Of a DNA stretch of 32,477 nucleotides, positions 1-17,600 are shown piece after piece. The stretch's first letter is position 1, and the number at the start of each line of letters is the position of its first letter. This stretch comes from a virus. The notes beneath the pieces are model-generated. The model was given only the letters and a program-made list of their open reading frames with translations, was not told the origin of the DNA and made no database searches. Made by a program: the position numbers and the translations under genes. The DNA lies in the IMG/VR virus record IMGVR_UViG_3300027805_000054, positions 1 through 32,477 of that record; one strand, given 5' to 3'.

Positions 1-2117
1 TTGGTTTTTAACGTTTGGGGATTAAGATTCTCAGTTATCTTTTTAAATATTGCCTTGGAAATACCAGTGTCATTCAGTCCGTCAGCGATCGCAGTTTGAA
101 TTATTTTCGGGAAAAATTTTGATAATCGATCAGCAATAAGTTTGCCGCCTGTTTGTTCTAATTTATCAATAGAACCATTGAGAATTGGAGATATTAAGCG
201 TGGTATTAAGGCATCTATCGCCTTTCCTCCTGCTGAAGCTATTCCTGAGCCAACAGCATTATCAACAACATCTACTCTGGTTACATCTTTTATTTTTCTG
301 GCAAACGACGATAAAGAATCATTGATTTCTGGGAATATTGTATCTAAAGCCATTGACAACTGCGATCCTATGACTCCCGAAAAAGCACCAGTTCCGAGTC
401 TCCCCACGTCAAAAAGTAACGGCAAGATTTGATCTGTTACGGAAATTTTGCTACCAAATCCAACTCCTTTTAAAAATCTTTCTCCTATTCCAGAAAAAGT
501 ATTTCCCACTACTGCCTGTGTGCGATTATTCCTGTTTAAGAATTTTTCTAATTCCGCTATTTCACTGCTACTTGATCTAACTCTAGATTCATAAAGTTTG
601 TATTCACTTTCAAGCTTTGCTAATTCCTTGGATTGCTCACTTCTCAGTCTGGTGAGTTGAGAAGTTAGAGACGTTATACTTCTTTCTAGTTCTTGTTTCT
701 GAGCGTCATCAATAGCAGGATTTTGTATTCTTCTCTGCCTCTGATCTATTTTGTTAGACAAAATTCTTTCATCTAATTTGAAGTTATCTTCAACTAATGA
801 TTTACGGGCATCAAGGATATTTTTTTCTTCTTCTAATCCATCCTTTAATTCCTTTAATCTTGTCCTTGCTTTGTCATTAGCACCACCATCTAGTATCCGC
901 GACAAAGTTGCCCTACCCGCAGCACTAGAAAATTTAACAATTTGTCTGTTTGCAGATTCAAAAGCATTATTAATGGTTTTACTTAAACTTGTTTCCAAAG
1001 AAAGCGCGATCGCTTCTGTGAAATTTCCTGTTGCTAATGCCTGAACTGTTGAATTTAATATATTAGTAACTAATGGTTGCTTGATAATGCCTTTAATAAA
1101 AGCTGCTGATGTTTTATTGCCAATAATATCAATAATTCTATTCTCTAAAGTAAAGTTGGCAAGTTGAGAATTTAAGCTCTGAAATACGGTTCTGACTTCT
1201 GTGCCTGCTAAGTCTTGGATTTGCCTATTAAATCCAGTTCCTATGAGTAAGTTGGCTAGTGGACTATTTGTAGGTATTTGTCCAGCGATAAGCCCCGATA
1301 TACTCCCAGTTAGTTCATCAATGGCTGCTGATGCAGATCCCCCTAGCAATGCTTGTATAAATTTAGGGGAATATTGAGCGATCGCGGGGCTAGTGGCAAT
1401 ACCTTCAACTAATGACCTAACTGGACCCGATCCAACTGTAAAATCAAAGAATGAGGCGATCGCGGTTTGAGCTAAAGATTTATCTAAGCTTTGTAAAGCT
1501 GTTCCAATAGCTTTTTGTGTACCAGAGAATATTGAAAATCCTAGTTTTTCTTCAATAGGATTAAATATAGCTCCGGTAATCCCTCTTACGCCCAAGCTAA
1601 CACTGTCAGATATTTTCTTGGAAACAGGAGTAGTATCTAGTTTTAATATTTCTCTAGTAAATCCTTCCCCGAATGGTACAGCAATATTTCCAATAGCTCG
1701 AATATTGTCACTCAAACTAGCGGTTTCGCTAATTGCGTCCTCCGCTTGCTGCGCTATCATCGAGAAAAAACTGTTAGCAACTGGATTTTCTTGAACAGTT
1801 TTTCTTATCTCATTAACAACAGAAAATAAGCCAGTTATTTTTGATGTTATTAGTCCAACGCTGGTGACAGTAGCTACTCCTAGTCCTGCCATCGCTGTGC
1901 TAGTATCAAGAACTTTAAGCCTCGCCGTATCAGCAAAAGCGGCTACAGTTGCCAAAGAACTTCCTGCTAATGCTAAAGACTTAGAAACAGCAGTTGATTC
2001 CTCTTTTAATTTAGCAAAGGCTACACTCGTATCTTTGAGGACTTTACTAGCTGAATCTTTAGCTTGAATTTCTATTTCTATCGGTCTAGTTGGCTCGTTA
2101 TTTCTGTTAGCAGCCAT
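1..2117 (-). CDS. Tape-measure-like tail protein, C-terminus beyond window
   Basis: An open frame of 705 codons runs from an ATG two bases after the stop of the preceding gene to the left edge without a stop, so the product is partial. The N-terminus (charged, then AKDSASKVLKDTSVAF) resembles the start of many tail tape-measure proteins, and the body is a long helical, Ala/Ser/Leu/Ile-rich chain with several weakly hydrophobic stretches. Residues about 425-530 are strongly charged heptad-like sequence (KELKDGLEEEKN, KLESEYKLYESRVR) that should form coiled coil. Tape measures set tail length and line the tail tube. The family is inferred from composition and N-terminus only; no peptidase or lysozyme domain is visible in the part present. 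It could instead be another large internal virion protein linked to the hydrolase gene upstream. Confidence 0.5.
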   Translation of the reverse strand, partial: MAANRNNEPTRPIEIEIQAKDSASKVLKDTSVAFAKLKEESTAVSKSLALAGSSLATVAAFADTARLKVLDTSTAMAGLGVATVTSVGLITSKITGLFSVVNEIRKTVQENPVANSFFSMIAQQAEDAISETASLSDNIRAIGNIAVPFGEGFTREILKLDTTPVSKKISDSVSLGVRGITGAIFNPIEEKLGFSIFSGTQKAIGTALQSLDKSLAQTAIASFFDFTVGSGPVRSLVEGIATSPAIAQYSPKFIQALLGGSASAAIDELTGSISGLIAGQIPTNSPLANLLIGTGFNRQIQDLAGTEVRTVFQSLNSQLANFTLENRIIDIIGNKTSAAFIKGIIKQPLVTNILNSTVQALATGNFTEAIALSLETSLSKTINNAFESANRQIVKFSSAAGRATLSRILDGGANDKARTRLKELKDGLEEEKNILDARKSLVEDNFKLDERILSNKIDQRQRRIQNPAIDDAQKQELERSITSLTSQLTRLRSEQSKELAKLESEYKLYESRVRSSSSEIAELEKFLNRNNRTQAVVGNTFSGIGERFLKGVGFGSKISVTDQILPLLFDVGRLGTGAFSGVIGSQLSMALDTIFPEINDSLSSFARKIKDVTRVDVVDNAVGSGIASAGGKAIDALIPRLISPILNGSIDKLEQTGGKLIADRLSKFFPKIIQTAIADGLNDTGISKAIFKKITENLNPQTLKT

Positions 2118-2119
2118 GA

Positions 2120-5100
2120 TTATTTTTTAACTCTAGATTGTACGAAATTACGAATTTTTTCTTTCTCAGTTCCAATCTTTTCTTTTAATTGATTGGAAAT
2201 AATATCAACTTCTTCCTGGAAATTAATTAGGGATTTATCAGCTTCTTTTAGTTTCTTGCTAATAGTTCCTTGTCCTAATTGAACACCAATTAATTTAGCT
2301 TCACCTACTATTGCTTTTTTGAGTTTTTGCCGTCTTGTTGTTGGCTTGTCTTTGTTTTTAATTCTATCAATTAAGTCACGTGTCCTCAAGTAAGCTCGTT
2401 CTAAATCTTGCCCTAAACCTCCCAATGTTGATGAGAGAGTACCCCTACCAAGCTTTGAGAGAAGTCGCTGCCTATTGTACTCTTTGGGATTTGAGGAATA
2501 ATTCAATCTGCATTTTTTCTCAGGAGGTAAACAGATATCACCACAGCGTTTATTATCTCCTGAACACTGATTAAGGAAGTCCAATTTAACTTCTAAATCA
2601 ACTTTAAAAATACCATTCAAGGTTGATGATCTCTGGATTTCGTAAGCATCAGTTTTTGGCTCAGAGGGTGGTTTAGTTTTAGTCGTGCGAGGTTTTCTGG
2701 CAGATGGCTTTTTAGTGGATGGTTTCTTGGGAGTCTTAGATGGAGTTGGACTTGTCACTTTAGCCGTTTCTTTGGTAGCCGCTTTTCTTCTGGCGTTAAA
2801 GGCAACTCTTTTTTTCTCCTTTCTGCCTAACTCTTCAAGACTTCCTTCGTAATATCCAAAAGATTCTCTAATAGCATCTCTAACTCGATTATCCTCAAGG
2901 TAATCTTTTGCTGAATGTCCTTTTACGGTGCTAATCCACTGCTGTCTAGCACCGCTACCAATATTGGGAATATTTGATACCGGATCTTGAGAACTGATAA
3001 TAGTCCGATGTCTTCTGGATTGATTCTCTGCAAATCCAAAATGAGGTGTTCCTAAATTAACAACATTAACTTGTCTAAGAACTTCTTTCCCGGTTGGATT
3101 TCCTTTTATGTCCATTCGAGAAAGTAACTCTAATGCTTCTTTAGTTGTTTGCCCAGCCATGCCATGAGCGACAACATTTATCTTTTTATATTTATTTTTG
3201 AGTTCGGATGGATTACTCGCTTTTCTCTGTATTCCATAAGCATATAAATGAGCCGCTAAATCTATTGCATCTTGATTTTTTCCTCTTTTAAATGTTTGCA
3301 AATAATTCTTCATTCCATCAAGAATTTCATCTCCATTACCAGTTTCATTTGATTTTTTATTAATACCCGTTTCTTGTAAATCAAATGGAATTACATAATT
3401 ATTTTGAGTAAGCCAATAATCACCATCGTTATCAGGTTCTTCTCTTTGGAGTAACTTTTTAATTTCTTCTGCTCCATGCCCTTTGCCTGAACCAACAGCA
3501 AATGTAATATTATCTTGAGGAACATGAACCAATCTAAGCTTGACGGCTCTTTCTTCTGCTAATTTAGCAGATTCATCAAAACCTTCACGATATTTCCCTT
3601 TAGTTTGTTCATAAGTTCTGATAGTTGTTCCCAGCAAAAACGCTCCTACTGCTCCGGCCGTCCAAGCGATTGGGGCTGAACCACTAAATTTAATTAATGC
3701 CTCTAGTCGTTTGTTCGTAGTGACAATATCTTTCAGTTGCCGTTTAGCTTCCCGTTCATTTTTATTTCTACCAGATAATCCAGATACAGCGATCGCTCTC
3801 GTACCCAAGCTACGTTTTCTCGCTACACCAGATACAATTCTCTGCGCTGATTCTGGATTTCTATCTGCTAATTTAATAGCGGATCTCATCTCATCTATTG
3901 GCATAGAACCATAACCAACTACACCTTTGCTAGACGCAATTTTTCTTAATTCTCGAATAGTGTAATTATTGCCAGTTTCAGGATTAATAATATAATCCTC
4001 TTCTTTTTTAGGTTCTGGATTAATCTGTTGAGTATTTTCTTCTAACTTGAATCGAGCGATCGCTTGATTGAGCTGTGATAATTCTGATGGTTTTGCTAGT
4101 TCAGAAGTTTTTAACTTACAAACATTATCTTTTTCAATACAAGTAGAACCGCAAGAAATACCAACTTTGCAGCGTTTCCTTTTACCCTTTAATATACCTT
4201 TCTTGGGAACAGCATCATAATAAATGTAAATACTGTCAGAACGTTTTGTTGTAGATTGGTAAGTTAAATTTCCATCTTTAAATGTGAACTTAAAAGGTTT
4301 ATTCTCAAGAGTGAATAAACCTGTTATTTCTCCATTCGGAGAAGATTTGATATTAACTATTTTACCTATCTGCTTATTACAAGCTCGACTAAGTAAAACA
4401 CTAAACTGTTTGATGACTAAATCTTTGCTGGAATTAGCTGCATCAAACCGTCCAACTCCAGACAAGGACTTTTTTAAGATTAAATCTCTCCCTTCTGTGT
4501 ATAAGTTAGATACAGAATCTTTCTTTGTGCGATCAAAATATCTATTCAGTATATCTTGAGTTGATTTATTGACTTCTACTCCGTCCCACACATTATTATT
4601 TTTCTCCCCTGTCCACTGATTATTTTTTGTCATTTTGTAGTGGACGCTAGAATAATACAAAGAATGTCCATTTGCCTTTACATTAGTTTTATTAGGCATT
4701 GTCACTCCATATATTCTTTCAACAGGATCTTTATCAGGGTCTATCAAGCTTAATCCAGTGGGACGAGTTAAGCCAAAATAAGGACTTCCTGTAGTTATAA
4801 CTCTGATATCTTTTACACCCAATTTATCCAAAATTTCGTAGGCTTCTCGCGTTGGCATCCCGCCCCCCGACTGCCCCATTAAATTTATTGGCTTATCTGG
4901 GAATTTCTGATGATAAGCATAAGCTCTAGCAGCGATTCTTACCGCAACATCGCTACGTCCTTTTGTTAGATTATCTTTTAACAAAGCGCGAGTTGCTTTC
5001 TTCAGAAAACTAGGACTAAGAACAGTTTCACCTTTTTCGGCAATTATTTCTTGTTCTGGTGACTCAATTCCAACAACATGATGATCTGGGAGCATTTTAC

Positions 5101-6475
5101 CAATTTGCTGTCCCATGTAATCTGCTTCTAATCCTTTTACACCTCCTACTCCACCAGTAAAAAATGTAATTTGGTTAACTTTATTCTGAGTATATCGGCT
5201 TTCCACTTCTGCGCCATCAGCATTGCTTTGATCTTTGACCGATCTATAACCTGCTTTTAACTCAGACGGAGTTTGATATATTTTTGCTTGTTCCTTGGCT
5301 AGTTCCGCAGAATTAGAAAATCCTGCCTGAAATCTTGCTTTTTGAACTAAATAAGTAGACGTAGGTATTCCTAGCAATAATGCTCCACTAGCGATCGCTG
5401 CTAACTGTAAACCTTCAGGAGATTTTAATTTCAACGAATTGAGCTGTCCTTCTCGGCAAACAGATTTTTTAGAAATGCAAATATCACCGCATTCTTTACC
5501 AATTTTGCAATTAGCTTTATCCATTCTGTCTTGTCGAACGGGAGTAGCTAATCTGTCTTTTACAAATTTCCTAAAGTCGGCATCTTCAAAATATGCGTCT
5601 TGTCCATGTTCAGCTACTTTATTGAAAGATTTTCTGTTAACCGCTTTACCTCCACCTGCTCTATTGACAATATAATCTTTGTCTGATGCGGCAGTCACAA
5701 TATCACCATTACCAGGGATGATATCAACGTCAGGAGAACCAATGGCAGTTGTTTTAGCTTTCACTCCTAATGTGTGGAGAATTTCATTAGTCTCCTGTAC
5801 TGTTAAGCCACCGCCGGAATGCCCTATTAATTGAAAGTCAACATTGGGATTAGCTTTTTTATATGCCAATAATTTAGCAGCTAATTGTCTAGCTACTGGA
5901 TTATGTTTTTTTTGAGCTACTGTTTTGATGAATAATTCCAGTGCTTCATTCACAGCTTTACCTGCACCATCTTTTGCAGGATTACTAGCTACGTTAAAAT
6001 CTTTGTATTCAATTGGTTCTGAATAAAGATTTCTAATTCCAAGAGATTTGATGTTTTCCTCTAGTTTTACGCTTTCAGAAAAAGCATCTTTTGTGCCAAA
6101 TCCACCAACCGCAAATACAGCCGTCTTGATGTTATCTGGTAATTTAGGTGCTTTTATTTTCTCTGATTCTTTCAGTGCTATCTTGCCACTTTCAGTAAAA
6201 CCTTTAATGTAATCCTGTTTTATTTTTTGAATACCAGCGATCGCTCCCAACGTACCAGCAGCAACAAGAGCCGTCCCACCGCCAGTCGCAGCAGCAGTGA
6301 TTAATGCAGTTTTTCCAAAATTATTTGATTTGGACGATTCAGGTTGAGAAAGTTTCTGTTCACCATCTCTACATTTTGATTTTTTGGGAATACAAATCTC
6401 ACCACATTTTTTACCCTTTCTACATACGGCATCAAAGACTTCTTTTCGGTACTTGCTGTTGTTTGCGATCGCCAT
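2120..6475 (-). CDS. Triplicated Cys-motif / hydrophobic segment / alpha-beta hydrolase-like protein
   Basis: This 1451-aa protein starts at an ATG with a good ribosome-binding site (AAGGAAGG). It is built from three repeated modules plus a tail. Each module has a four-Cys motif (residues 18-35, 323-340, 769-786), a hydrophobic helix, a conserved amphipathic stretch of the type GFxxSAxLAxExA, then an alpha/beta-hydrolase-like core. Core 1 has GHSGGG (Ser220) with candidate Asp258 and His290. Core 2 has GQSGGG (Ser536) with Asp583 and His604. Core 3 has AHGMAG, where the nucleophile position is Gly1105, but keeps Asp1164 and His1187. A Lys/Pro-rich linker (about 1240-1285) and a fourth Cys motif (1304-1322) precede a charged, coiled-coil-like C-terminus. 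The serine nucleophile, acid and histidine order is that of lipases/esterases; the substrate is unknown. It lies in a close-packed row with the two other Cys-motif genes and the tape-measure candidate. The hydrolase fold is inferred from motif order. Confidence 0.6.
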   Translation of the reverse strand: MAIANNSKYRKEVFDAVCRKGKKCGEICIPKKSKCRDGEQKLSQPESSKSNNFGKTALITAAATGGGTALVAAGTLGAIAGIQKIKQDYIKGFTESGKIALKESEKIKAPKLPDNIKTAVFAVGGFGTKDAFSESVKLEENIKSLGIRNLYSEPIEYKDFNVASNPAKDGAGKAVNEALELFIKTVAQKKHNPVARQLAAKLLAYKKANPNVDFQLIGHSGGGLTVQETNEILHTLGVKAKTTAIGSPDVDIIPGNGDIVTAASDKDYIVNRAGGGKAVNRKSFNKVAEHGQDAYFEDADFRKFVKDRLATPVRQDRMDKANCKIGKECGDICISKKSVCREGQLNSLKLKSPEGLQLAAIASGALLLGIPTSTYLVQKARFQAGFSNSAELAKEQAKIYQTPSELKAGYRSVKDQSNADGAEVESRYTQNKVNQITFFTGGVGGVKGLEADYMGQQIGKMLPDHHVVGIESPEQEIIAEKGETVLSPSFLKKATRALLKDNLTKGRSDVAVRIAARAYAYHQKFPDKPINLMGQSGGGMPTREAYEILDKLGVKDIRVITTGSPYFGLTRPTGLSLIDPDKDPVERIYGVTMPNKTNVKANGHSLYYSSVHYKMTKNNQWTGEKNNNVWDGVEVNKSTQDILNRYFDRTKKDSVSNLYTEGRDLILKKSLSGVGRFDAANSSKDLVIKQFSVLLSRACNKQIGKIVNIKSSPNGEITGLFTLENKPFKFTFKDGNLTYQSTTKRSDSIYIYYDAVPKKGILKGKRKRCKVGISCGSTCIEKDNVCKLKTSELAKPSELSQLNQAIARFKLEENTQQINPEPKKEEDYIINPETGNNYTIRELRKIASSKGVVGYGSMPIDEMRSAIKLADRNPESAQRIVSGVARKRSLGTRAIAVSGLSGRNKNEREAKRQLKDIVTTNKRLEALIKFSGSAPIAWTAGAVGAFLLGTTIRTYEQTKGKYREGFDESAKLAEERAVKLRLVHVPQDNITFAVGSGKGHGAEEIKKLLQREEPDNDGDYWLTQNNYVIPFDLQETGINKKSNETGNGDEILDGMKNYLQTFKRGKNQDAIDLAAHLYAYGIQRKASNPSELKNKYKKINVVAHGMAGQTTKEALELLSRMDIKGNPTGKEVLRQVNVVNLGTPHFGFAENQSRRHRTIISSQDPVSNIPNIGSGARQQWISTVKGHSAKDYLEDNRVRDAIRESFGYYEGSLEELGRKEKKRVAFNARRKAATKETAKVTSPTPSKTPKKPSTKKPSARKPRTTKTKPPSEPKTDAYEIQRSSTLNGIFKVDLEVKLDFLNQCSGDNKRCGDICLPPEKKCRLNYSSNPKEYNRQRLLSKLGRGTLSSTLGGLGQDLERAYLRTRDLIDRIKNKDKPTTRRQKLKKAIVGEAKLIGVQLGQGTISKKLKEADKSLINFQEEVDIISNQLKEKIGTEKEKIRNFVQSRVKK

Positions 6476-6498
6476 ATTATCCTTCCTTAAATGTATTT

Positions 6499-7620
6499 TT
6501 ATTCTGTTACTTTTTTAGGACGACCTCGACCTCGTTTCGTTTCAGCAGCAACTTGATTTGTTGCAACAATAGCTTTTGCTGTCTGCTCTACAGGAAATGA
6601 TTCTGGATCTTCTGTTGATTTTGATTTTTCCTTAGAAGATGGAGATATTTCTGATTTTGGCTTATTCTTTCCAAGTAATTTTTTAGCTTGTCTGCCAGTA
6701 TTTTTTGCAACGTTTGAAGCTGTCATCTTGATATCTTTTCCAGCAAGCTTCAAGTTACTTCCAATAGCACTAACAGCATTTTGAGTACCAGCTTTAACAG
6801 CACCCGCGGCAGCTCCTAACGAAGCCCCTCTTGTTGTTCCAATAACGCCCGCCATATTCCTTCTGTTTTCGTATTCTTCTTTTCTTGATATTTTTCCTCC
6901 AAGGGATTCTCTTACTTTTCTCGACTGTTCTTCTGCGGCGCGTACACCTTTTACTCCTTCTCCTCCTGCTTTTAAAGCTGCTTTGGCTATGTCAGTACCT
7001 TTTGTAAATTCTTCCTTTCCTTCCTTCGCTGCCTGTTTCAAGCGACTGCCTATAGCTTTCGCTCCACGTCCCAACTCGTTTCTGTTTAAGTACGCAACTC
7101 CACCAGCACCAGCTACAGTAGCCGCGCCAACTAAACCAGCACCAACACCAGCCGCAACACCACCAGGAGACTTTAATCTACCCGCAGCTTGTCTCATCGC
7201 ACCAGCATTGCCAGTGCCGTTATATTTTTTACATTTAGCACCCTTGGGTAAGCAAACTTTTCCGCAAGCTACGCCACCTTTTTTACACTTGACTTGTGCA
7301 TCTAATCTCACAAAGCCAAAAGCATATTCGCAGGGACTATCCATGCTGTCAGTTTTAATGCCATAACCACTTTCTAAAAAGCCTCTAGCATATTCATTGA
7401 TTTCTTCTGAATCCTCTGGAGAGTAATTAAATCCTATTTCATTGCCATCAGCAGCATAATTGTAGATGTCGCCGCCACTCATTAACTGACCAACGATCAT
7501 GTCTTCACTTAATGATGCTGTCAGAATAGTTACTGGTGCATCAAATTCATCTGCATAAACTTTGCCGATCTCAGTTAAAACATCAGTTGTTTCAGAGTCA
7601 AAGTGTTCAGTATCAAACAT
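6499..7620 (-). CDS. Cys-motif protein with hydrophobic segment and AT-hook-like C-terminus
   Basis: This 373-aa protein has no family I recognise. The start is an ATG with GAGAGGAA upstream, one base after the stop of the JAMM-like gene. Residues 1-100 are acidic and soluble-looking. Cysteines 112, 119, 123 and 130 form the same C-x6-C-G-x2-C-L-x5-C-K motif as in both neighbours. A Gly/Ala-rich hydrophobic segment at about 152-178 follows LKSPGG, matching the LKSPEG before the hydrophobic helix of module 2 in the downstream 1451-aa protein, and is followed by a similar charged helix. The C-terminal third is basic and repetitive with a Ser/Lys/Glu linker, and ends in KRGRGRPKK, which resembles an AT-hook. 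It looks like one of the neighbour's modules with the hydrolase core absent. Membrane or virion location is inferred; the DNA-binding hint is weak because basic tails are common. Confidence 0.6.
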   Translation of the reverse strand: MFDTEHFDSETTDVLTEIGKVYADEFDAPVTILTASLSEDMIVGQLMSGGDIYNYAADGNEIGFNYSPEDSEEINEYARGFLESGYGIKTDSMDSPCEYAFGFVRLDAQVKCKKGGVACGKVCLPKGAKCKKYNGTGNAGAMRQAAGRLKSPGGVAAGVGAGLVGAATVAGAGGVAYLNRNELGRGAKAIGSRLKQAAKEGKEEFTKGTDIAKAALKAGGEGVKGVRAAEEQSRKVRESLGGKISRKEEYENRRNMAGVIGTTRGASLGAAAGAVKAGTQNAVSAIGSNLKLAGKDIKMTASNVAKNTGRQAKKLLGKNKPKSEISPSSKEKSKSTEDPESFPVEQTAKAIVATNQVAAETKRGRGRPKKVTE

Positions 7621-7621
7621 T

Positions 7622-8293
7622 TTAAATTTCCTCTCGCTTATAAGTCATTCCTAAATCTTTAGCCGTTCTTTTAATAACTTCGTGGTGATAATCACCCTCT
7701 GCCACATCTATTCTCATCCTGCCTGTAATGATTTTGGTAGCAAATTCTTTATAAACCTCACCTTCGTACTTTTCGTAAGCTGGTTTAATGCGATCGCTCC
7801 ACAACTTTTCATCCCAACCAGATGGAGGAGGTTTGATAGAGTGCCGATAACCATTGCTAACGGCTCTCATTTCTTTGCAATTAGTGATACAAGCAACTTG
7901 AATATCGGCGGAGGAAAAGCTTAAACCTTTGCTTCTAGCATCATTCCTACTCCATCCCAAATTAGGATGATTGTGAGTAACAATTGAGCCTCGCATTTTC
8001 AATAAATCATCTACTGTTAAATTAACTGAAGTGCGATCGCCTCCCTTAGCCAAAATTACTCTACCTTTATCATCAATAATTAATGCTTTTTCCGTTGGTA
8101 AATCTTTAATTTTATCTTCGTAGCGATGAACAATCTTTTCTAATTGCTTTTCGCTAAGACGACATTTCTTGATTCTGGGAATACAAGCATCACCACATTG
8201 ATAATTAGTTTTTTTGCACTTTAGGGTTTGATTTTGGAAGTCTGTCCTTGCTTCGATTCTTCCCTTTAATCTCGCTAGGGGCAGCAGTTTCAT
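7622..8293 (-). CDS. Cys-motif protein with JAMM-like metal-binding signature
   Basis: A 223-aa protein with an ATG start ten bases after GGAGG. Cysteines 26, 33, 37 and 44 form the four-Cys motif shared with the next two genes. Residues 80-135 hold a beta-strand pair and THNHP (His107, His109) followed by FSSAD (Ser127, Asp130). H-x-H-P then S-x2-D is the metal-ligand pattern of JAB/JAMM proteins and of RadC, although the gap between His109 and Ser127 is longer than the usual seven or so residues; a Glu near residue 65 could be the upstream acid. Such domains are isopeptidases or peptidases in characterised JAMM families and are also known attached to phage proteins. The C-terminus is charged and helical. 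Its position straight after the neck genes suggests a virion-associated enzyme. Assignment to JAMM is by motif only, and a structurally different metal-binding domain is possible. Confidence 0.5.
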   Translation of the reverse strand: MKLLPLARLKGRIEARTDFQNQTLKCKKTNYQCGDACIPRIKKCRLSEKQLEKIVHRYEDKIKDLPTEKALIIDDKGRVILAKGGDRTSVNLTVDDLLKMRGSIVTHNHPNLGWSRNDARSKGLSFSSADIQVACITNCKEMRAVSNGYRHSIKPPPSGWDEKLWSDRIKPAYEKYEGEVYKEFATKIITGRMRIDVAEGDYHHEVIKRTAKDLGMTYKREEI

Positions 8294-8369
8294 TTGTTAT
8301 TAATCCTCCAAAAACATTACCCTTTAAGTGAGAATCATCCAATAAAAAACCGTCTTTAATATCACTCAT
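8205..8369 (-). CDS. Possible small ORF overlapping the JAMM-like gene (54 aa)
   Basis: An ATG at 8369 overlaps the TGA of the preceding neck gene by eight bases and has AGAGGT about eight bases upstream. It encodes 54 residues, beginning MSDIKDGFLLDDSHLKGN, before a TAA. The last 89 bases overlap the first part of the JAMM-like gene in another frame. The leading 35 residues look like ordinary protein, whereas the end (KNRSKDRLPKSNPK) looks like out-of-frame sequence. A +1 shift near the AAAGGG at about 8250 would join it to the JAMM-like frame and give that protein a longer N-terminus. It may therefore be a separate small gene, the 5' part of a frameshifted or shift-programmed gene, or chance. 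Confidence 0.3.
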   Translation of the reverse strand: MSDIKDGFLLDDSHLKGNVFGGLITNETAAPSEIKGKNRSKDRLPKSNPKVQKN

Positions 8370-8784
8370 AAATATAAACCTCTTGCTGTCCTTGATCTTG
8401 TTTAACTTGAATACTCCAAGTTAAACCATTATCGGTTAATTGCAGTAAAGTACAAGCTATTTGCGGAGCATCTGGGGTATTATCAATGCTATCTACCAGA
8501 TAATCTACATTCTCAGCTTCTAATTCATGACGTGGATACTTCTTAGAAATACCCTTAATATCAAGAACCCTAGCCATACCCTGTAAATTACTCAGACTAC
8601 TCATGTTTTCCAAATCATATTTAGTTTCTTCAATAACTGGATTTGGGATAACTTGAGTAATTTGGTAATCATCACCAATTAGCCGCCGGATATAAACATC
8701 CCTAACTTTTGGCAGTCCATACTCAACGGCTTTTTTAGCAGCAGCATCGCGCAATATTGACATTCTTTCAAAGAAGCTTGTCAT
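8362..8784 (-). CDS. Putative neck / head-tail joining protein
   Basis: I set the start at the ATG overlapping the previous gene's TGA as ATGA (140 aa); an in-frame ATG 39 bases earlier would add 13 residues that lie entirely within the upstream gene. The product (MTSFFERMSILRDAAAKK) is a mixed alpha/beta protein with no recognised motif, Cys or hydrophobic segment. In DUF2213-DUF2184-DUF4054 head modules the gene after the DUF4054 connector usually encodes another neck or tail-completion protein, and this one has the right size and place. The function is therefore by position only. Confidence 0.5.
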   Translation of the reverse strand: MTSFFERMSILRDAAAKKAVEYGLPKVRDVYIRRLIGDDYQITQVIPNPVIEETKYDLENMSSLSNLQGMARVLDIKGISKKYPRHELEAENVDYLVDSIDNTPDAPQIACTLLQLTDNGLTWSIQVKQDQGQQEVYIYE

Positions 8785-9176
8785 ATAGGGAAACCTATAC
8801 CAAATTTGATATTTCCATCCCATTCATCTTCATCATCAACTCTGGGTGAGAGTGTTCCAACTAACAATTCATCCTTGAGCATTTTGTATCTTCTGCCGTA
8901 GGTTGTTAGCTGAAAATCATCCTGTTGAGCAGATGGAGATGCACTACCACTACCAGAAGCCATTGCGATCGCTCTACCGCCAGTTTCCGCAGTTTGAGCA
9001 TCTTCCATTTCCAGGAAATGCGCCATCAGCAACATAATTCCAGTATCCCGACGTTGACCCCAAAGAGATGTAGCTACAAACTCCTTAGCTTGCTCTAAAG
9101 CAAAATCAACAATTTCGGGATCTTGAGTCTGGAACTTTTTGTATCTAGCAAGAAAACTGGGGCGTGTGACGACCAT
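8781..9176 (-). CDS. DUF4054-type head-tail connector protein
   Basis: This 131-aa protein has the helical pattern of the DUF4054 connector family: an N-terminal FLARYKKFQTQDPEIV, a helix with FALEQAKEFV, a Trp (SLW), then LLMAHFLEM followed by a Gly/Ser/Ala-rich loop and a YGRRY-containing end. In those families the protein forms a ring below the portal and closes the filled head. It starts at an ATG two bases after the stop of the upstream gene and ends in a TGA overlapping the next start, so translation is probably coupled. The length fits the family. Assignment is from motif layout plus position two genes after the major capsid gene. Confidence 0.7.
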   Translation of the reverse strand: MVVTRPSFLARYKKFQTQDPEIVDFALEQAKEFVATSLWGQRRDTGIMLLMAHFLEMEDAQTAETGGRAIAMASGSGSASPSAQQDDFQLTTYGRRYKMLKDELLVGTLSPRVDDEDEWDGNIKFGIGFPI

Positions 9177-9178
9177 AA

Positions 9179-9688
9179 TTATCTCCCAGTAGCAATAGAA
9201 CCGGAAATAGTTTGAGACATAGCCGCAACTTCATCCTGAATATCTTTGAGTCTATCTGCAAGCAACTTTCTCACTTCAGGACGACGATCTACATTCAAAC
9301 TTAGTGACAACCAATCAACATCTTTAGAGTTTTCAGCTAACTCTTGAATGATGCCGATATCCTCAAAATCAGTGGTATCTCTGACTGGAAATTCTGCGGT
9401 TGGCGTGTAAATAGTCAAAGCACCACATTTAATCAAATTGTTAATGGCAATCTGATTAACTTCATGCTTGAGAACACTATTCCACTTGTCAGTATCAATG
9501 AAATTAGTTCCTTTATTCAAGGTGACAACTTCAATTTCTACCCTGTCAGCTAAAGTTAATTTGCTGTCTTTTTTAGCAGCAGTTGGACGCTCAATCTGGT
9601 AATTGAACAATCTTGCACCGCGCACACCAAATGGTATTTGCCGGCTTTTCTCTCTTTCAGGGTGGTAAGCGATCGCAAAGTAGGACAT
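9179..9688 (-). CDS. Unknown virion/head-module protein
   Basis: A 169-aa protein I do not recognise. It lies two bases after the major capsid gene and two bases before the connector gene, in the same operon. The middle region (about 50-110) alternates strands and short helices (VEIEVVTLNKGTNF, GALTIYTP), followed by a charged helical tail ending in a Ser/Thr-rich stretch. It has no Cys-rich motif, signal peptide or membrane segment. Its place between capsid and connector suggests an accessory head or neck component, for example a second connector or a minor capsid protein. The function is inferred from neighbours only. Confidence 0.55.
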   Translation of the reverse strand: MSYFAIAYHPEREKSRQIPFGVRGARLFNYQIERPTAAKKDSKLTLADRVEIEVVTLNKGTNFIDTDKWNSVLKHEVNQIAINNLIKCGALTIYTPTAEFPVRDTTDFEDIGIIQELAENSKDVDWLSLSLNVDRRPEVRKLLADRLKDIQDEVAAMSQTISGSIATGR

Positions 9689-9690
9689 AA

Positions 9691-10623
9691 TTACACCCCA
9701 ATAACAATGTGAGCAGCGTAACGGCGATATACAATAATGCCGTTGTAGTCAAAACTGTAACCACGATAAAAAGCCCAAGGTCCATCGGGAATTAAAGGAC
9801 GAGGGCGGAATGGGTCAGTGATTCTAGCTTTGAAGTACGAGGGATCGCGCTTATAAAACACGGCCACAGCTTCGCCATTCGGTCCGGCAGTTTCAAGTTC
9901 AGCCATTGGCTGAATGTCTTTGATGCTGGGATTATTTTCCAAGAAATATCTCAAAACTGATCTCTCTTGTCCATATTCACTGAGGCGGAACTGACTCATT
10001 AAGAAGTCGTAGCGATTTTCAGGAAGCAAGAGGGTATCGTATTTGATAATTTTGTTGGTAGCTTGCTTGCCACCTTGAATCCCTGCATTTAGTACAGCTA
10101 GAACGTTGTTAGCGTTCATGGTACTGCCATCTAGCTTATATAAAGCCATTGACCGTAGCCAAGCAGGATGATTGAAAAAACCAGCAAGTCCAGTTTTGAC
10201 ATCCCCAAACAACAACAACTTATTCAAGATTTCTTGATAAGCGCGTTGAATTAATATGATCTTTTGTTGTTCAATGGGAACGTTTCTTTTTAAGGTTGCA
10301 GCTATTTCTTTTTCTGTAAATCTGTAGCCATTGCGATAGGTGAATATTCCTTGGTTGAACTGTTCACCAACCATTTCCACATAAGGTAAATTGCTGGTTT
10401 GTCCCCGTGCCAATTCAAAACCACCTACGCCATCAATAGTGGTATAGCTGGTAGATTCAGCCCAAGCTAAATTCTGTTCTTCAATCTGAAATAACATCCC
10501 AGCAGCCGCAGGTAATTCAGGTTTTAACGTCTGAATTACTTGAGCTTCTTGATATTCTAATTCTCTCTGGAAAGCTCCAATGGTAGGAGCATCCAATCTA
10601 ATTTCTGATGCAGCTAAAGACAT
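9691..10623 (-). CDS. Major capsid protein, DUF2184-like
   Basis: This 310-aa protein matches the DUF2184 major capsid family by overall pattern: an N-terminal helix, a segment with aromatic strand (WAESTSYTTIDGVG), the conserved RNGYRFTEKEI region, a long helix (IILIQRAYQEILNKLLLFG), GLAGFFNHP, a Pro/Asn turn (LLLPENRYDFL), and a C-terminal strand set ending VYRRYAAHIVIGV. In this family the protein forms the icosahedral shell with the HK97 fold. The start ATG follows AGGAG at proper spacing. It comes directly after the decoration protein and protease, the usual order protease, decoration, capsid. Length is typical. Confidence 0.8.
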   Translation of the reverse strand: MSLAASEIRLDAPTIGAFQRELEYQEAQVIQTLKPELPAAAGMLFQIEEQNLAWAESTSYTTIDGVGGFELARGQTSNLPYVEMVGEQFNQGIFTYRNGYRFTEKEIAATLKRNVPIEQQKIILIQRAYQEILNKLLLFGDVKTGLAGFFNHPAWLRSMALYKLDGSTMNANNVLAVLNAGIQGGKQATNKIIKYDTLLLPENRYDFLMSQFRLSEYGQERSVLRYFLENNPSIKDIQPMAELETAGPNGEAVAVFYKRDPSYFKARITDPFRPRPLIPDGPWAFYRGYSFDYNGIIVYRRYAAHIVIGV

Positions 10624-10634
10624 AATGCTCCTAA

Positions 10635-11525
10635 TTAAAAGTCAACTTTACAAAGAGTGATGTTTTTGCCAAAAGCTTGTTGAGTAGCAGACAGGATAGT
10701 TACATTTGAGGAAACATTCGCCGTACCACTGGTTGATTTGGTAAGTTTGCCTTGGTTGCCAGCAGTAATTTGAATACGTGCGGTGTCACCAATCACCAAA
10801 TCCGACTCAACAGTTTCAATCCAGATGCCTTTATAAGTTCCGCTATTTTTTAGAACTTCCATCGTTCTGCCAAATGCGTAACCGTCTTGAGCATTTTGGA
10901 ATGTCCCAACTTGCTCGGTAGCTTGGCTGAGAATGGTAACGCCGTAATTAGAGTAATTGGAAGCATGATCTACTAAAGTCATTGCGCCAACACCCTCTAG
11001 GGGATCTTGGTAGTAAGCTGTCTGTCTGCCAACAAATCTACCGAAAGGAATAATAGCGTTAGCTGCGCCTGTTACAGTCTTAGTGATCGTCAAGTCATTG
11101 GTAGTTGCACTAGAGTTAGAGGTAACAGTCAAGACAGTACCAACGGAGCGGGCGGTCAAGGTGATGACGCTAGTGCCAGTGTTTAAGGAGACGTTGACCA
11201 CAGAATAAAATTCTGGATCTGTAATCATCGCGTTGTACAAGCCAGTTCCTAATTCTGCGGTTGTCGCACTAGCATCAGTGCTGAAAGAATCGGATAAGTT
11301 CTTTTGACCTCCACCGATCGCTGCAATGGTCACAGTATAAATTGCAGAATTATCTACTGTTGCGGGTGGGGTGATGGTTACGGTGTCGTAGGTCGCGTAG
11401 TTATTTAACGCAGGAATTATAATTGCAGAACCAATTCCAGACATCATCCCAGCGAGCGCCGGAGACATATATCGGGAATAATTGCTTTGCCCAGTGGCAA
11501 CATTAATTGATTGAAATTCAGGCAT
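10635..11525 (-). CDS. Capsid decoration / structural cement-like protein with inserted Ig-like domain
   Basis: A 296-aa protein lying between prohead protease and major capsid, the usual slot for a head decoration or cement protein. Residues 1-40 and about 155-296 look like one domain (FGRFVGRQTAYYQDP, then strands ending ITLCKVDF). Between them, about 45-140, sits a Thr/Ser/Val-rich segment (YTVTIAAIGG, TITLTAR-like strands, TVTSNSSA) resembling an all-beta insert seen in several phage surface proteins. The insert would be displayed on the outside of the capsid. The shine-dalgarno before its ATG is weak, so translation may depend on the preceding gene, whose stop lies only five bases upstream. 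Assignment is by position and composition. Confidence 0.6.
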   Translation of the reverse strand: MPEFQSINVATGQSNYSRYMSPALAGMMSGIGSAIIIPALNNYATYDTVTITPPATVDNSAIYTVTIAAIGGGQKNLSDSFSTDASATTAELGTGLYNAMITDPEFYSVVNVSLNTGTSVITLTARSVGTVLTVTSNSSATTNDLTITKTVTGAANAIIPFGRFVGRQTAYYQDPLEGVGAMTLVDHASNYSNYGVTILSQATEQVGTFQNAQDGYAFGRTMEVLKNSGTYKGIWIETVESDLVIGDTARIQITAGNQGKLTKSTSGTANVSSNVTILSATQQAFGKNITLCKVDF

Positions 11526-11530
11526 TTTAC

Positions 11531-13021
11531 TTAACTATTTTTGCTAAGGGATAAGGGTTGTTGCCAAGCATTTGCTAATTCTTGCGATCGCTCAGTTTGT
11601 TTTTGTGCAGGATTTTCGCCACTGCGGGTTAAACCAATCATTTGCCGTAAATTGGTGCTGTAAATATCTGAATCAGCAGAATCAGTGCGACCAAAATCAT
11701 CACTGTCATCACCTGATTGAGATTCAATTAGCAAGCGGTCTATCACGCCTTCCAAGTAAGCAGGTGAAGCATTAGACAAATCAACGTCTGGCATGAGTTC
11801 AGAAGCGATCGCATGATAGATGTCGTTTCTACCTAAAGCAGAATCAAACTTAAAGTTAAGACCTAAATCTTCAGCTTTTTTCCAAGCTTCAAGAATGACG
11901 GGAACTGAGTCTTTTCTTGCGATCATTTCTTCCTCATCCCCATATTCTTCATCGCCCTCATCGCCTTCTTCATCATCTTCCTCATCATCTTCCTCATCAT
12001 CTTCATCAGAAGAATCGTATTTTTTCATGTCCATTTTTTTCATGTCCATTTTTTTTATGTCCATTTTTTTCTTTTTGGACTTAGACATCATTTCTTCCTC
12101 ATCCTCGTATTCTTCTTCCTCATCCTCGTCATCTTCCTCAACCATCATTTTCTTTTTCTTGCTGTCTAAAACAAATTCTTCAGAGTCAGCATTCCAGGTA
12201 TAACCGTGCTTTTCAAGAATTGGTAGTGCGTTAGTAGTCACCACTTCGTAAGCATCAGCATGACCTTGATAGCGATCGCGCTCCTCGGTCAATTCTTCAA
12301 TTTGTTGTTGAAGTGCTACTATTTGTTTGTCAAGTTCGATTTCTTTTTCTGATAGAGAATCGGCTTTTATGGCTTGTTTCTCCAAATCAGAAATATGCCC
12401 ACTGACAACAGAGGCAATAAGGGGATCAACTTCGTAAGTAGCTCCCTTGATAGTTAAACTGGCCATAGATTTATGTTTATTAGTTGTTTGATAGGCAACA
12501 TCTTTATCATCACTATCTAAATGCAAGGCAACATCAGAACCCGCACGTCCTTTTTTAGTCAAAGCTACGTGATTGGGTTCAATATCAACTTGAATTGCAT
12601 CGTAATGTTGTCCTCTCCAAGTTCCAGGTTCATTGATGACACGGCATTTATATCCAGTAGATATTTCTGTTGTGTCACCCCTTTCTATGGATCTAACGGC
12701 TTCAGCGTCAGTGACGATCACCACACCTCGAACGTAATCATCCTCTAGAAAAACTGTTGAATCTGTTATCCCTACTTGGTACTGTTTGGCATTTTCAGCA
12801 TTTACTAATCTGTCAGGATGTTCATTAGTAACTATCTGAGAAGCCCATTTTTTTAATGCTTTTTCGTTTTCCTCTCCAGGGCGAAATTCTCTCCTAACTC
12901 CTCCGTCTGGTGTGCGATATTCTAAAATTCCTTGTTTCGCAAACGAACCTACCGCCTTAAAGTAACCTTCAGGCGTTTTGATCGGGCTGCGAATTGTTCC
13001 AGAATCAAATCTTATTGCCAC
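11531..13021 (-). CDS. Prohead protease with scaffold tail, DUF2213-like
   Basis: The first 170 residues match the DUF2213 prohead protease family: a TPEGYFKAVG start region, VTNEHPD, DTTEISTGY, and EPNHVALTKKGRAGSDVAL. The His in NEHP and the Ser in EIST are candidate active-site residues. The rest is scaffold-like: a helical coiled segment (about 205-255), then extremely charged sequence with alternating acidic runs and three KKMDM-type repeats (about 290-365), then a helical C-terminus. The fused scaffold would guide capsid assembly and be cut away on maturation. The start is GTG at 13021 (no ATG fits) and lacks a clear Shine-Dalgarno. It opens the head operon, so its promoter should lie in the 13022-13150 region. 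Confidence 0.8.
   Translation of the reverse strand: MAIRFDSGTIRSPIKTPEGYFKAVGSFAKQGILEYRTPDGGVRREFRPGEENEKALKKWASQIVTNEHPDRLVNAENAKQYQVGITDSTVFLEDDYVRGVVIVTDAEAVRSIERGDTTEISTGYKCRVINEPGTWRGQHYDAIQVDIEPNHVALTKKGRAGSDVALHLDSDDKDVAYQTTNKHKSMASLTIKGATYEVDPLIASVVSGHISDLEKQAIKADSLSEKEIELDKQIVALQQQIEELTEERDRYQGHADAYEVVTTNALPILEKHGYTWNADSEEFVLDSKKKKMMVEEDDEDEEEEYEDEEEMMSKSKKKKMDIKKMDMKKMDMKKYDSSDEDDEEDDEEDDEEGDEGDEEYGDEEEMIARKDSVPVILEAWKKAEDLGLNFKFDSALGRNDIYHAIASELMPDVDLSNASPAYLEGVIDRLLIESQSGDDSDDFGRTDSADSDIYSTNLRQMIGLTRSGENPAQKQTERSQELANAWQQPLSLSKNS
12026..12074 (-). repeat. Three 15-bp tandem units encoding KKMDM repeats
   Basis: Within the protease/scaffold gene the unit catgtccattttttt (plus strand) occurs three times in tandem with only one base difference in the last copy. 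It encodes consecutive Lys-Lys-Met-Asp-(Met/Ile) units in the charged scaffold region. The number of units is likely to vary between related phages by slippage. Confidence 0.85.
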
Positions 13022-13809: not shown

Positions 13810-14600
13810 GCTGTTCTGATCGCCATTCTCGATGCCGTTGCTGAAATATTATCAAAAACTGTGTAAGTTGCGTTAGTTGTGGGATCAAAAAACTGTTGTA
13901 AAATAGCCATCCCACTATTCGGTACACTAATTACATCATTGCTAAAAAAAGCAATGGGTTTTTTGTTTGTTGTATCTACCAGCATACAATTTGTTAAAAA
14001 TGGACGATTCTGCCATATCTCTACGGTTGGGATACCATTGTCCAAATAACCATTGCAAGAAGTAGCTACGCCTACAGAAGCAGGTCTTAAAAGTGAAATT
14101 GGCTGTAAGCCGTTTGAGGCGTAAGCATTTACCCCTGAATCAATAAATCCATAGGGGGCTTCTCCCCACAGTGTAGGTTTAGATGATGGTCGCACGTAAC
14201 CAAAAAATTTCTCATAGGAAGTCCCTTCTTGTATGATTACCCCTCTTACTTCAGGATGACTACATATATGTAGAGTAAATGCAGCCGTCATTGAGATCGT
14301 GCTAGTAGTCGCTGTCACGGATTCATTTGTACCGATGTCACCTGCTGGATTATAAGAAGAATATCCTCTTACTCTTATTGTTCCTGACGCACTAAAACCA
14401 CCATGTATTATCATTTTTCCCCAGTTAGTATCTGCGGGGTCAGCGTCAAATTGCCAAACTCTTTGTTCATTACCAGTTGTAACGAATGAATCAATCTGAG
14501 AAAAACCAGCAGCAATCATCGCTGTGTTTACCTCATTCATGAATTTTGTTTGTGTACCATCTCCAGTAAACGTTGTTGATGTAATTGTGGCGTTAGGCAT
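13806..14600 (-). CDS. Putative virion/tail-fibre-associated protein
   Basis: A 264-aa Thr/Ser/Ala/Gly-rich protein, probably all-beta, starting at an ATG that overlaps the stop of the long fibre gene by one base (TAATG). There is no signal peptide or membrane segment. It contains segments such as QRVWQFDADPADTNWGKMII and a Cys-containing region (TNCMLVDTTNKKP) but no motif I recognise. Tight coupling to the collagen-like fibre gene suggests a fibre tip, adhesin or receptor-binding component. The function is inferred from the neighbourhood. Confidence 0.55.
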   Translation of the reverse strand: MPNATITSTTFTGDGTQTKFMNEVNTAMIAAGFSQIDSFVTTGNEQRVWQFDADPADTNWGKMIIHGGFSASGTIRVRGYSSYNPAGDIGTNESVTATTSTISMTAAFTLHICSHPEVRGVIIQEGTSYEKFFGYVRPSSKPTLWGEAPYGFIDSGVNAYASNGLQPISLLRPASVGVATSCNGYLDNGIPTVEIWQNRPFLTNCMLVDTTNKKPIAFFSNDVISVPNSGMAILQQFFDPTTNATYTVFDNISATASRMAIRTA

Positions 14601-17600
14601 TATTCAATCTCCATAATTGTCAAAGTCACCTGAACTGTTCCTGCGCTACCAGAAAGATTTGTAATAGTAATGGGGATATTATTTGAACTTGGTATAGTTG
14701 CAATATTAACTATCGGTGATAAAGGAATAGTTAACAGTGAGTTAGTAGTTACGATTTCCATTAATAACCCAGCATCACTAGCATTAAAATTTAACGCATC
14801 TTGTAGGGTAGATGGAACATTTCTGCCCAGATCAGTAGCTTGTTTTGTTGTGTTATTATACATCCTTATTCTAGCAGGTTTATCGGTTGCTACCTGATAA
14901 CAAATAAATCCAGAACTAGCAGTGAATGTAATTTGTTGATGCGCTGCGTTTGATAAAGAATTAGACGTAATAACCACATTGCGTCTTGTCTTTTTAAGGG
15001 CTACTTCCGATTCTGTACCATCGCTTTCTCCTCTAATAAATAGTCCATTGTTCTTGTTAAAAAGCTTTAGTTGATCTACAGACGTTGACGGTGCTGTTGT
15101 TACTTCAGTTAGTGTTATTTCAGAAGCCGCCGTAATACTGCCCGGCGCACCTGTAGCACCTTTATAATTTTTCCATAATCCAGTAAAGTCACTTGCAATA
15201 GGAGAAGTGATGGGTGAAGTCGTAGTTCTTACTGCTATAAAATCCTTAGAGCCATTAAAAGTATTAGTAAATCCTGCACCATTAGCATCATCGGCATAAG
15301 CCACATAAGTGTAGCTAGATAATCCATTAATCCCATTTGCACCTGTAGCTCCCGTTGCACCTGTAGCTCCCGTTGCACCTCTATCACCAGTTAATGTAAT
15401 ATTCCAACTTGTATAAGTACCACTGCCAACAGCGTTATCAACACTTATAGTTACTGACGTGCTGCTAACAGCCGTAACTACACCCTCAACATAATTTGAA
15501 CCATCATTAGCAGCGCGTAACCTAGAGCCTGTCAACCATCCTAAATTAGAACTTGCAGTATAGGTAAAAGTTTTACTGCCCGTACCAATTGAGTTAGAAG
15601 CAGTAGAAGTTCGGGCAATGACTCCTGCTTCTCCTTGAATACCTTGGATGCCTTGTAGTCCCGTTGCACCTGTAGCTCCCGTTGCACCTGTAGCTCCCGT
15701 TGCACCTCTATCACCAGTTAATGTAATATTCCAACTTGTATAAGTACCACTGCCAACAGCGTTATCAACACTTATAGTTACTGACGTGCTGCTAACAGCC
15801 GTAACTACACCCTCAACATAATTTGAACCATCATTAGCAGCGCGTAACCTAGAGCCTGTCAACCATCCTAAATTAGAACTTGCAGTATAGGTAAAAGTTT
15901 TACTGCCCGTACCAATACTATTTGAAGATACTGAGGCTCTAGTAATGACTGCACCTCCGCTTCCACTACCAGCAAAAGCAATATATCTACCAGTTGTGTC
16001 CGTAGGAGAAACAACTGTAGGTAAATTTTCAGAAGTAGTGGAACTAGCGTCATAGAGATACCATCCTGGATTAGTAGTTCCATTATCATCTACAGCATAA
16101 AGTCCTCCGTTTATTCTTTTTGGAGTAGTTGAATTAGTCAAACCTTTCAACTCTGCGATCGCCCCAACTTTAAAAATAGGAGTATCATTACTGACTATTT
16201 TTAACCATCTACCGGGAGAAGAAATATTAATTGCTGTTGGCTTGATAAATAAATCACTGTCATCTACATCATAAGAAGTTGAATCAAACCTATATTCCGC
16301 ATCCACAGAAATTACATAACGAGCTTGCCAAGGAAATATATCAGCAAGTTCCAATGCTCTCAATGCAGATAAATCCGCAACTGGTAAACCGATCGCTCTA
16401 AATAAAGTTTGCAAATCAGCAAGTGTGCTACCAGACTCAACCACACAACCTAATGCCGTATCATGAGAAATCGAAGTAACAGTATTTTCATAGAGATATG
16501 CGATCGCAACTTCATAATTACCAGAAGTGAAGACACTGGAATTAGCTTCAAATGTGCTAGTGAATGAAGTTGGGATAAATAGCCCTACTTCAGCAGCAAC
16601 AGAAGGTAAAGAAGTGATTATTGTGCTACCAGATGAACCTACCAATATTGTTTCGGTAGCGTTAACTCCAGTGATAGGAGTGTCAAAAACATGAATATTA
16701 GAACTACCAACAATTCTTGCATAAACTCTGATTTTACCAGCGTTTAATTTAGCAGTCGTACCAGCAATTGCATCGGGATAATCAGTTCTAATTGCAGTAG
16801 CATGAGTAACAGTAATACTCAGAATTTTAGTAGCATCTAAAGCAATAGAACCAGCCCAAGCCGTCGGACGGCCAACACTATTTACTGTACTAATTACGGC
16901 TCTTAATCCTGCGGTATCAGGAACAGTAGCAGCTACAAAACAAGTTCCATTGTTGGTAACTAAAATCTTCTGATTTGCGGTATTTGAACTCGCGCCAAAA
17001 ACATCAGTTCGTCCAATATTTCGCCATTTGTAATAAGCGATTGATCCCGAACCACTATCAGCTAATAAACTTAAACCTGTACCATTTGGCAAGATTCTTC
17101 TTTTGCCACCAGTGGGGAAAATTCGAGAACCAATATCGTCAAAAGCTGGATCATATTCTGCATAGTGCGGTGCTAAATAGGGATAAATTTTGACAACTTC
17201 ACCTTGATAGGCTTTATTATCAACATCTGCCATATCAAATGCCATTTGTACTTGTAACACATAGGCAGAACCAGCAGGTAAATCCTTTGGTAGTAGTAAA
17301 TTTGTGATTGCATCCCCTTGGTAATCCAATTCACCACCAACGGACATACCAGTTGTATCTAAAACTCCTGTCGACGTACTCGCATAACCCAAGAAAGTAA
17401 TTTTCATTAATCCCTTGAAGTCGTCAGAAGCAATTTCATCATTAGCTGTTGAGCAAGCTATTCTCACTCGCTTACCTTGGGAAATTAGATTATTAGTATC
17501 GTTGACAATCCAAAATTTTACAGGCTTAGACAAATCGCCAGAAACGTCATAATCAGGGGTAATTATTGCTGAATAATCTGTAATTTTTGACAAGTCAACA

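Follow-up and report, generated by a model that had tools for sequence, protein, structure and literature searches.

The stretch of DNA analysed here, called the window, comes from IMG/VR, where it is a 32-kb virus record (IMGVR_UViG_3300027805_000054; 32,477 nucleotides). Its nearest relative is Aphanizomenon phage vB_AphaS-CL131, with a DNA identity of 84% over 55% of the first 25 kb. On the minus strand, head genes are followed by the genes for proteins of 223, 373 and 1451 amino acids (aa) and then by a tape-measure-like gene (Table 1). CL131 has the same gene order (gp038–gp049), where the counterparts of these three genes are annotated "hypothetical". In both phages the three genes sit within the virion cluster, between the head genes and the tape measure, and each carries a cysteine motif, C-x5/6-CGxxC[IL]-x5-C, named C4. 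A likely tail fibre is encoded elsewhere in the window (14600–18154, minus strand): a 1184-aa protein with collagen-like repeats and tail-fibre-like PHROG matches.

Table 1. Features of the C4-tagged genes and their neighbours, listed in minus-strand order
Feature	Position	Strand	Description or basis
Upstream head genes	8362..13021	-	Connector genes including DUF4054, major capsid protein PF09950, cement protein, DUF2213 prohead protease
223-aa C4-tagged JAMM/JAB-fold protein	7622..8293	-	Conserved E68, HNHP 107-110, S127xxD130; orthologue CL131_gp044
C4 tag of JAMM protein, CKKTNYQCGDACIPRIKKCR	8159..8218	-	Strict search; predicted beta hairpin
373-aa protein: adaptor, C4, then Gly/Ala-rich hydrophobic, basic tail	6499..7620	-	Orthologue CL131_gp045
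Adaptor domain of 373-aa protein, about aa 9-83, predicted alpha-beta4-alpha	7372..7596	-	hhalign with other adaptors, C4 excluded; AF2 pLDDT about 70-83
C4 tag of 373-aa protein, CKKGGVACGKVCLPKGAKCK	7228..7287	-	Strict search
1451-aa modular protein: four C4 tags alternating with three alpha/beta-hydrolase-like units	2120..6475	-	ORF, motif and Pfam searches
C4 tag 1, CRKGKKCGEICIPKKSKCR	6368..6424	-	Strict search
Hydrolase-like unit 1, GHSGGG	5516..6148	-	Approximate borders; weak Lipase_3 match
C4 tag 2, CKIGKECGDICISKKSVCR	5453..5509	-	Strict search; last conserved element ahead of swapped unit
Hydrolase-like unit 2, GQSGGG	4481..5278	-	Comparison with near-identical phage
Adaptor domain before tag 3, aa 685-741	4253..4423	-	hhalign to Mu-like, PaV-LD and G564 adaptors
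C4 tag 3, CKVGISCGSTCIEKDNVCK	4115..4171	-	Strict search
Hydrolase-like unit 3, AHGMAG	2726..3448	-	DUF676 match, aa 1092-1153
C4 tag 4, CSGDNKRCGDICLPPEKKCR, then conserved C-terminal domain	2507..2566	-	Strict search
Tape-measure-like gene, start, cut by window end	3..2117	-	Same position as CL131_gp049, annotated tape measure

A strict pattern search of all six frames of the window finds six C4 copies, all on the minus strand and confined to the three adjacent genes: one in the JAMM-like 223-aa protein, one in the 373-aa protein and four in the 1451-aa protein. The rest of the window has none, exactly as an earlier note on this DNA had stated. Shuffling within the three tagged proteins gave no C4 match in 20,000 trials, which rules out chance repeats as the origin of the copies. 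The cysteines themselves are concentrated in the motif (16 of 17 in the 1451-aa protein, 4 of 5 in the 373-aa protein). C4 segments are strongly basic, with a mean net charge of +5.5 over about 26 residues, and the C4 of the JAMM protein forms a β hairpin in the predicted structure; this modelled hairpin and the basic charge would fit either zinc binding or disulfides. Membership in the LDL-A, conotoxin or known zinc-finger families was rejected, as matches were at chance level only. The earlier note had also placed a hydrophobic segment after four copies; a moderately hydrophobic segment follows three (best 19-mer Kyte–Doolittle values 1.39, 1.52 and 1.58), none above 1.6.

The 223-aa protein has an AF2 model with a pLDDT of 87.6, and only the RadC JAB domain (2qlc; probability 0.98, E 0.008) matches its fold convincingly in the PDB. 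It also carries the invariant motif E68, H107-x-H109-P and S127-x2-D130. The E...HxHP...SxxD motif and the predicted fold together confirm a JAMM/JAB metalloprotease fold, and the label "JAMM-like" stands.

The 1451-aa protein is built on a different plan. The DUF676 match in the window lies below the Pfam cut-off, while those in the CL131 and G565 homologues lie above it. The GxSxG nucleophile motif is present in units 1 and 2; the serine is absent from unit 3, which is therefore probably an inactive relative. In place of GHSGGG, unit 3 reads AHGMAG in the window and AHCNGG in Nostoc homologues, and the unit is kept in all copies seen. Disparate effectors may share one chain: the window protein holds three hydrolase-like units, and in a Nostoc homologue a kinase-like domain is present as well. 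The homologues in a Nostoc phage contig (L018, 7044–12290) and in G565 (L074, 5055–11726) have one more C4, with a HipA/PI-kinase-like domain after it. Inspection by eye suggests that L034 may join kinase- and ART-like parts.

Many C4 copies are preceded by a 55-aa domain, here called the adaptor. Profile comparison of five separately aligned sets, with the C4 residues removed, indicates homology among adaptors (best E 2.5e-10, against 0.002–0.7 for column-shuffled controls). Not all adaptor pairs are significant, and the 373-aa family therefore joins the others mainly through G564, a 154-kb virus. The adaptor model is moderately confident (pLDDT 64), and its fold has no PDB match with E <0.1. 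The likeness of an Arthrobacter major tail protein to the Mu-like adaptor (E 0.002) was treated as chance; that protein has no cysteine.

The domains joined to these constant parts are varied. Pfam domains in tagged proteins include ART, ART-PolyVal/PARP, ATLF-like peptidase, HipA_2/PI3K-like kinase, DnaJ, DUF676/cutinase, DUF3626, LPD1, GNAT and InPase; several of these matches are below the curated cut-off and rest also on motif and context. Further C4 cargo comprises HExxH peptidase motifs (seen by eye), an HNH-like protein and a ParB-like domain (weak phrog match). Comparison with a near-identical phage (L015) gives 95–100% identity up to tag 2, about 25–30% in unit 2 and 97–100% again from adaptor 3. 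ORFs at the same locus of PaV-like phages are 85–100% identical over the first 160 aa, through C4, and thereafter mostly far less so; the C-terminal part is ART-like in one and something else in another. ORFs of a single locus thus pair a constant adaptor and C4 with different C-termini. C4 is a mobile module of cyanophages. One prophage has the InPase domain PF18823 joined to its Mu-type portal (L034, 6427–8496), and another has it joined to adaptor, C4 and GNAT (L114, 15319–16965), which suggests exchange between portal-borne and tag-borne cargo.

The distribution of C4 extends well beyond the CL131 group. CL131, six IMG/VR contigs and two Nostoc contigs carry C4 in the same genes as the window; the earlier note had allowed that related phages might lack the motif at this locus, and every close relative here has it. 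Planktothrix phage PaV-LD, whose capsid protein is 34% identical to that of the window, has seven tagged ORFs, five of them between the connector genes and the tape measure. G564 has 15 C4 copies, Synechococcus phage S-CBWM1 has five tagged genes, and in Nodularia phage kac65v151 variants of C4 occur in gp019 and gp025, which lie between the portal and protease genes, and in gp198. Of 218 Nostocaceae genomes, about a dozen have C4 matches; each Mu-like prophage inspected has one or two tagged genes, mostly directly after the portal gene. In another cyanobacterium belonging to the same order (G619), a Mu-like prophage carries, between its presumed MuF and portal genes, a row of genes with the tag or the adaptor. 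Within proteins, C4 may be N-terminal, internal, near the C-terminus or repeated. The search across cyanobacterial phages and genomes proposed earlier finds C4 genes near head genes and with varied partner domains. Exceptions to this position are gp106/gp113 of S-CBWM1 and, in L065, two genes that stand among presumed tail genes.

Cyanobacterial host genomes rarely contain the motif. Among 386 genomes drawn at random from the phylum, 3 had matches with a first profile and 5 with a broader one (2 of these 5 off-target), and a purely host motif was rejected on this rarity. When 84,980 species genomes were scanned with a single tight version of the motif, only two loci were confirmed, both of them in Nostoc phage contigs; a further 15 raw matches are, by estimate, at about chance level. 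Matches of a short query to a Gordonia MuF protein and to Salmonella phages SPN3US/SEGD1 contain no C4 pattern. The prospect, raised earlier, that C4 might be widespread in unrelated host proteins is thus not borne out in cyanobacteria, but its core does occur in unrelated small exported proteins of Proteobacteria with signal-peptide-like N-termini.

Several observations link C4 to the virion. Mu-like prophages show the order portal, C4 gene, MuF, major capsid protein (MCP), and two Nostocaceae prophages encode Portal_Mu (E 1e-116 and 1e-107), adaptor, C4 and effector in one reading frame. RIO-, ChoK- and APH-like kinases are reported in S-CBWM1 virions (PMC10665884, citing Xu et al. 2018). 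The S-CBWM1 genes so annotated, gp113, gp161 and gp162, all begin with C4, and three of the five C4 proteins of this phage, which is distant from the window phage, therefore match kinases reported from virions. S-CBWM1 gp174, annotated "virion structural protein" and located beside the MCP gene, has only four cysteines, all in a C4. A PknB-like kinase of this phage, gp173, bears no tag. In gp113 and gp161 (L123, L134), C4 lies at or upstream of the annotated start codons; the true starts are therefore probably upstream, and the deposited proteins probably lack their true N-termini. The virion proteome of CL131 is reported as 23 proteins by LC-MS/MS (PMC6293099).

A virion-detected kinase of the T4-like phage S-CRM01 (L135, 148–2613) has no cysteine, and C4 is therefore not needed for packaging in every cyanophage. 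Its start, MISFDQFLSEKK, resembles a T4-type capsid targeting sequence, which would make it the same kind of cargo with a different tag.

Because three tagged S-CBWM1 enzymes are reported in particles, C4 appears to mark proteins that the virion carries and probably delivers into the host cell. Our main reading, held at a probability of roughly two in three, is that the three genes of the window encode virion-carried effectors with a shared portable cargo or docking tag, namely C4, plus the adaptor where present. The earlier proposal of a shared tag marking a system for virion delivery or assembly draws strong support from comparison across about six cyanophage lineages, from the portal fusions and from the reported virion kinases; that C4 itself is the targeting element we infer, as we do its contact partner, delivery into the cell and the effector activities.

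A model of this system can be outlined as follows. While the head is assembled, C4, together with the adaptor in proteins that have one, would attach to a component of the prohead or close to the portal, and this docking would pack JAMM, lipase-like and other enzymes into the particle. The packed effectors would pass into the cyanobacterium along with the DNA, to act at an early stage of infection. The C-terminal cargo would be exchanged through recombination beside the tag, giving a polymorphic effector set, and in the 1451-aa protein several tag-plus-cargo units are joined in a single polypeptide. A wider claim, which we put at even odds, is that unrelated cyanophages (siphovirus-type, Mu-like, Nodularia phages and the cyanomyovirus S-CBWM1) use C4, by itself or joined to the adaptor, as a transferable tag for capsid loading. 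The tag alone would then reveal a large, so far unrecognised set of injected effectors and could bring foreign proteins into cyanobacteria.

The main rivals of a cargo tag are a nucleic-acid tether and a generic stabiliser. As a tether, C4 would be a small nucleic-acid-binding zinc knuckle that ties effectors to packaged phage DNA or to host nucleic acid, with other parts sorting them to the virion. Four invariant cysteines, strongly basic segments and the predicted β hairpin all suit such a knuckle, and several cargos act on nucleic acid (HNH, ParB-like), but many others do not (lipase-like, JAMM, DnaJ, ART). C4 matches no Pfam zinc-finger family, the C4 profile alone has no PDB sequence match, and the core occurs in exported proteins with signal-peptide-like N-termini; a tether appears rather unlikely.

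The second rival takes its strength from those same exported proteins. Because C4 is very short and its core is found there, it may be a generic cysteine hairpin: disulfide-stabilised, suited to the oxidising periplasm or the outside, and protecting or folding the N-terminus on the virion surface or during periplasmic passage without being a sorting signal. The core C-x5-CGxxCI-x5-C ends small proteins with signal-peptide-like N-termini in Vibrio, Leisingera, Mesorhizobium and Aureimonas, and occurs also in Pseudoalteromonas phage C5a gp23 and in a cyanobacterial lipoprotein-like protein; in the proteobacterial setting it leans towards a redox or structural hairpin. The tagged phage proteins, however, have no signal peptide and start like cytoplasmic proteins, and a stabiliser leaves unexplained the restriction to certain kinds of gene, the portal fusions and the joint retention of tag and adaptor while the cargo changes. 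This explanation is judged unlikely. Very unlikely is a membrane-insertion module of late or lysis-related enzymes made of C4 and a hydrophobic segment, a membrane role also considered in the earlier note: such a segment follows several CL131-like and most G564 copies and would suit a lipase-like cargo with a membrane target, but among PaV-like copies it follows just one (a Pro/Val/Ile repeat), and all nine Mu-like copies lack it. The segment is therefore lineage-specific and no general membrane tag, and a purely non-virion role is contradicted by the fusions to portals and by the report of tagged kinases in virions.

A cargo tag of this sort would join an already known kind of protein, the virion-borne effectors (PMC5512222, PMC5576092, PMC9503650). 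MuF polymorphic toxins have a conserved virion-linked N-terminal part, varied C-terminal toxins and a location near the portal, and delivery by the particle has been proposed for them (Jamet et al. 2017, PMC5576092). C4 proteins likewise combine a constant part with varied C-terminal domains near the portal. Unlike MuF toxins, the tagged protein of Mu-like prophages has a gene of its own next to a genuine MuF gene, and C4 can be repeated within one protein and occurs also in a phage of unicellular Synechococcus; PF04233 (Phage_Mu_F) has no match in the window proteins or the tagged relatives scanned. Polyvalent proteins carry ART-PolyVal, LPD1, InPase, JAB, ParB-like and zincin-type peptidase domains, form portal and MuF fusions and are presumed to be injected with the DNA (Iyer et al. 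2017, PMC5512222). C4 proteins share these kinds of effector, the head-cluster position and the Portal_Mu fusion, but most consist of one or two effector domains and the tag rather than long mixtures. No cysteine module is named in the main text of that paper (0 matches for "cysteine").

The T4 capsid targeting sequence is a short N-terminal tag on Alt, an ADP-ribosyltransferase, and on IPI–III that brings unrelated proteins into the head for ejection; it is a propeptide of roughly 10 residues removed by the gp21 protease (PMC9026906). C4 is also a short tag common to unrelated proteins, including ADP-ribosyltransferase cargo, but it is a cysteine hairpin that can be N-terminal, internal, repeated or C-terminal, and so is not solely an N-terminal propeptide. 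By analogy, C4 would act like the MuF toxins and the T4 tag, yet without the defining feature of either. Searches of Pfam, NCBIfam, PDB sequences and an incomplete body of literature gave no record of the C4 tag, of its adaptor or of their occurrence across unrelated cyanophages.

Sequence is a poor guide to which proteins phages pack and inject, most of all in cyanophages, whose genes of this type are mostly called "hypothetical". A 20-residue signature across unrelated phages would allow virion effectors to be listed from raw sequence. Such a signature is consistent with the enzymes reported from S-CBWM1 virions and indicates a delivery tag distinct from MuF and the T4 sequence. Predicted early-infection effectors in bloom-forming cyanobacteria would then include JAMM, lipase-like, kinase, ADP-ribosyltransferase and acetyltransferase proteins.

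Two further groups resemble C4 outside these phages. The LDL-receptor class A domain has roughly similar first four cysteines and a CI-P element; it has six cysteines and a calcium-binding DxxDxxDE motif, whereas C4 has four and lacks the last two and the acidic motif, and the PDB match is at chance level (relaxin receptors, E 1.2 and 2.4). The small exported bacterial proteins have a core spacing identical to that of phage C4 and similar residues (KGKACGxSCI), and common descent is plausible. They differ from phage C4 proteins in their signal-peptide-like N-terminus, extra cysteines on both sides, lack of an effector domain and mainly proteobacterial hosts. Mostly unannotated, matching no named family found and ending CC-x2-C-x5-CGxxCI-x5-C-x5-C-x-C, they occur on plasmids of Vibrio nigripulchritudo, Leisingera, Mesorhizobium and Aureimonas (L119–L122) and also in L116 (G179:C1:938898-938954). 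Gp23 of phage C5a (L126, 3099–3539) has a signal-peptide-like N-terminus, the C4 CRKGQPCGNSCISWKKTC and an SH3 domain, and is apparently exported. In Mesorhizobium, the gene for the small Cys-rich protein adjoins a thermonuclease gene.
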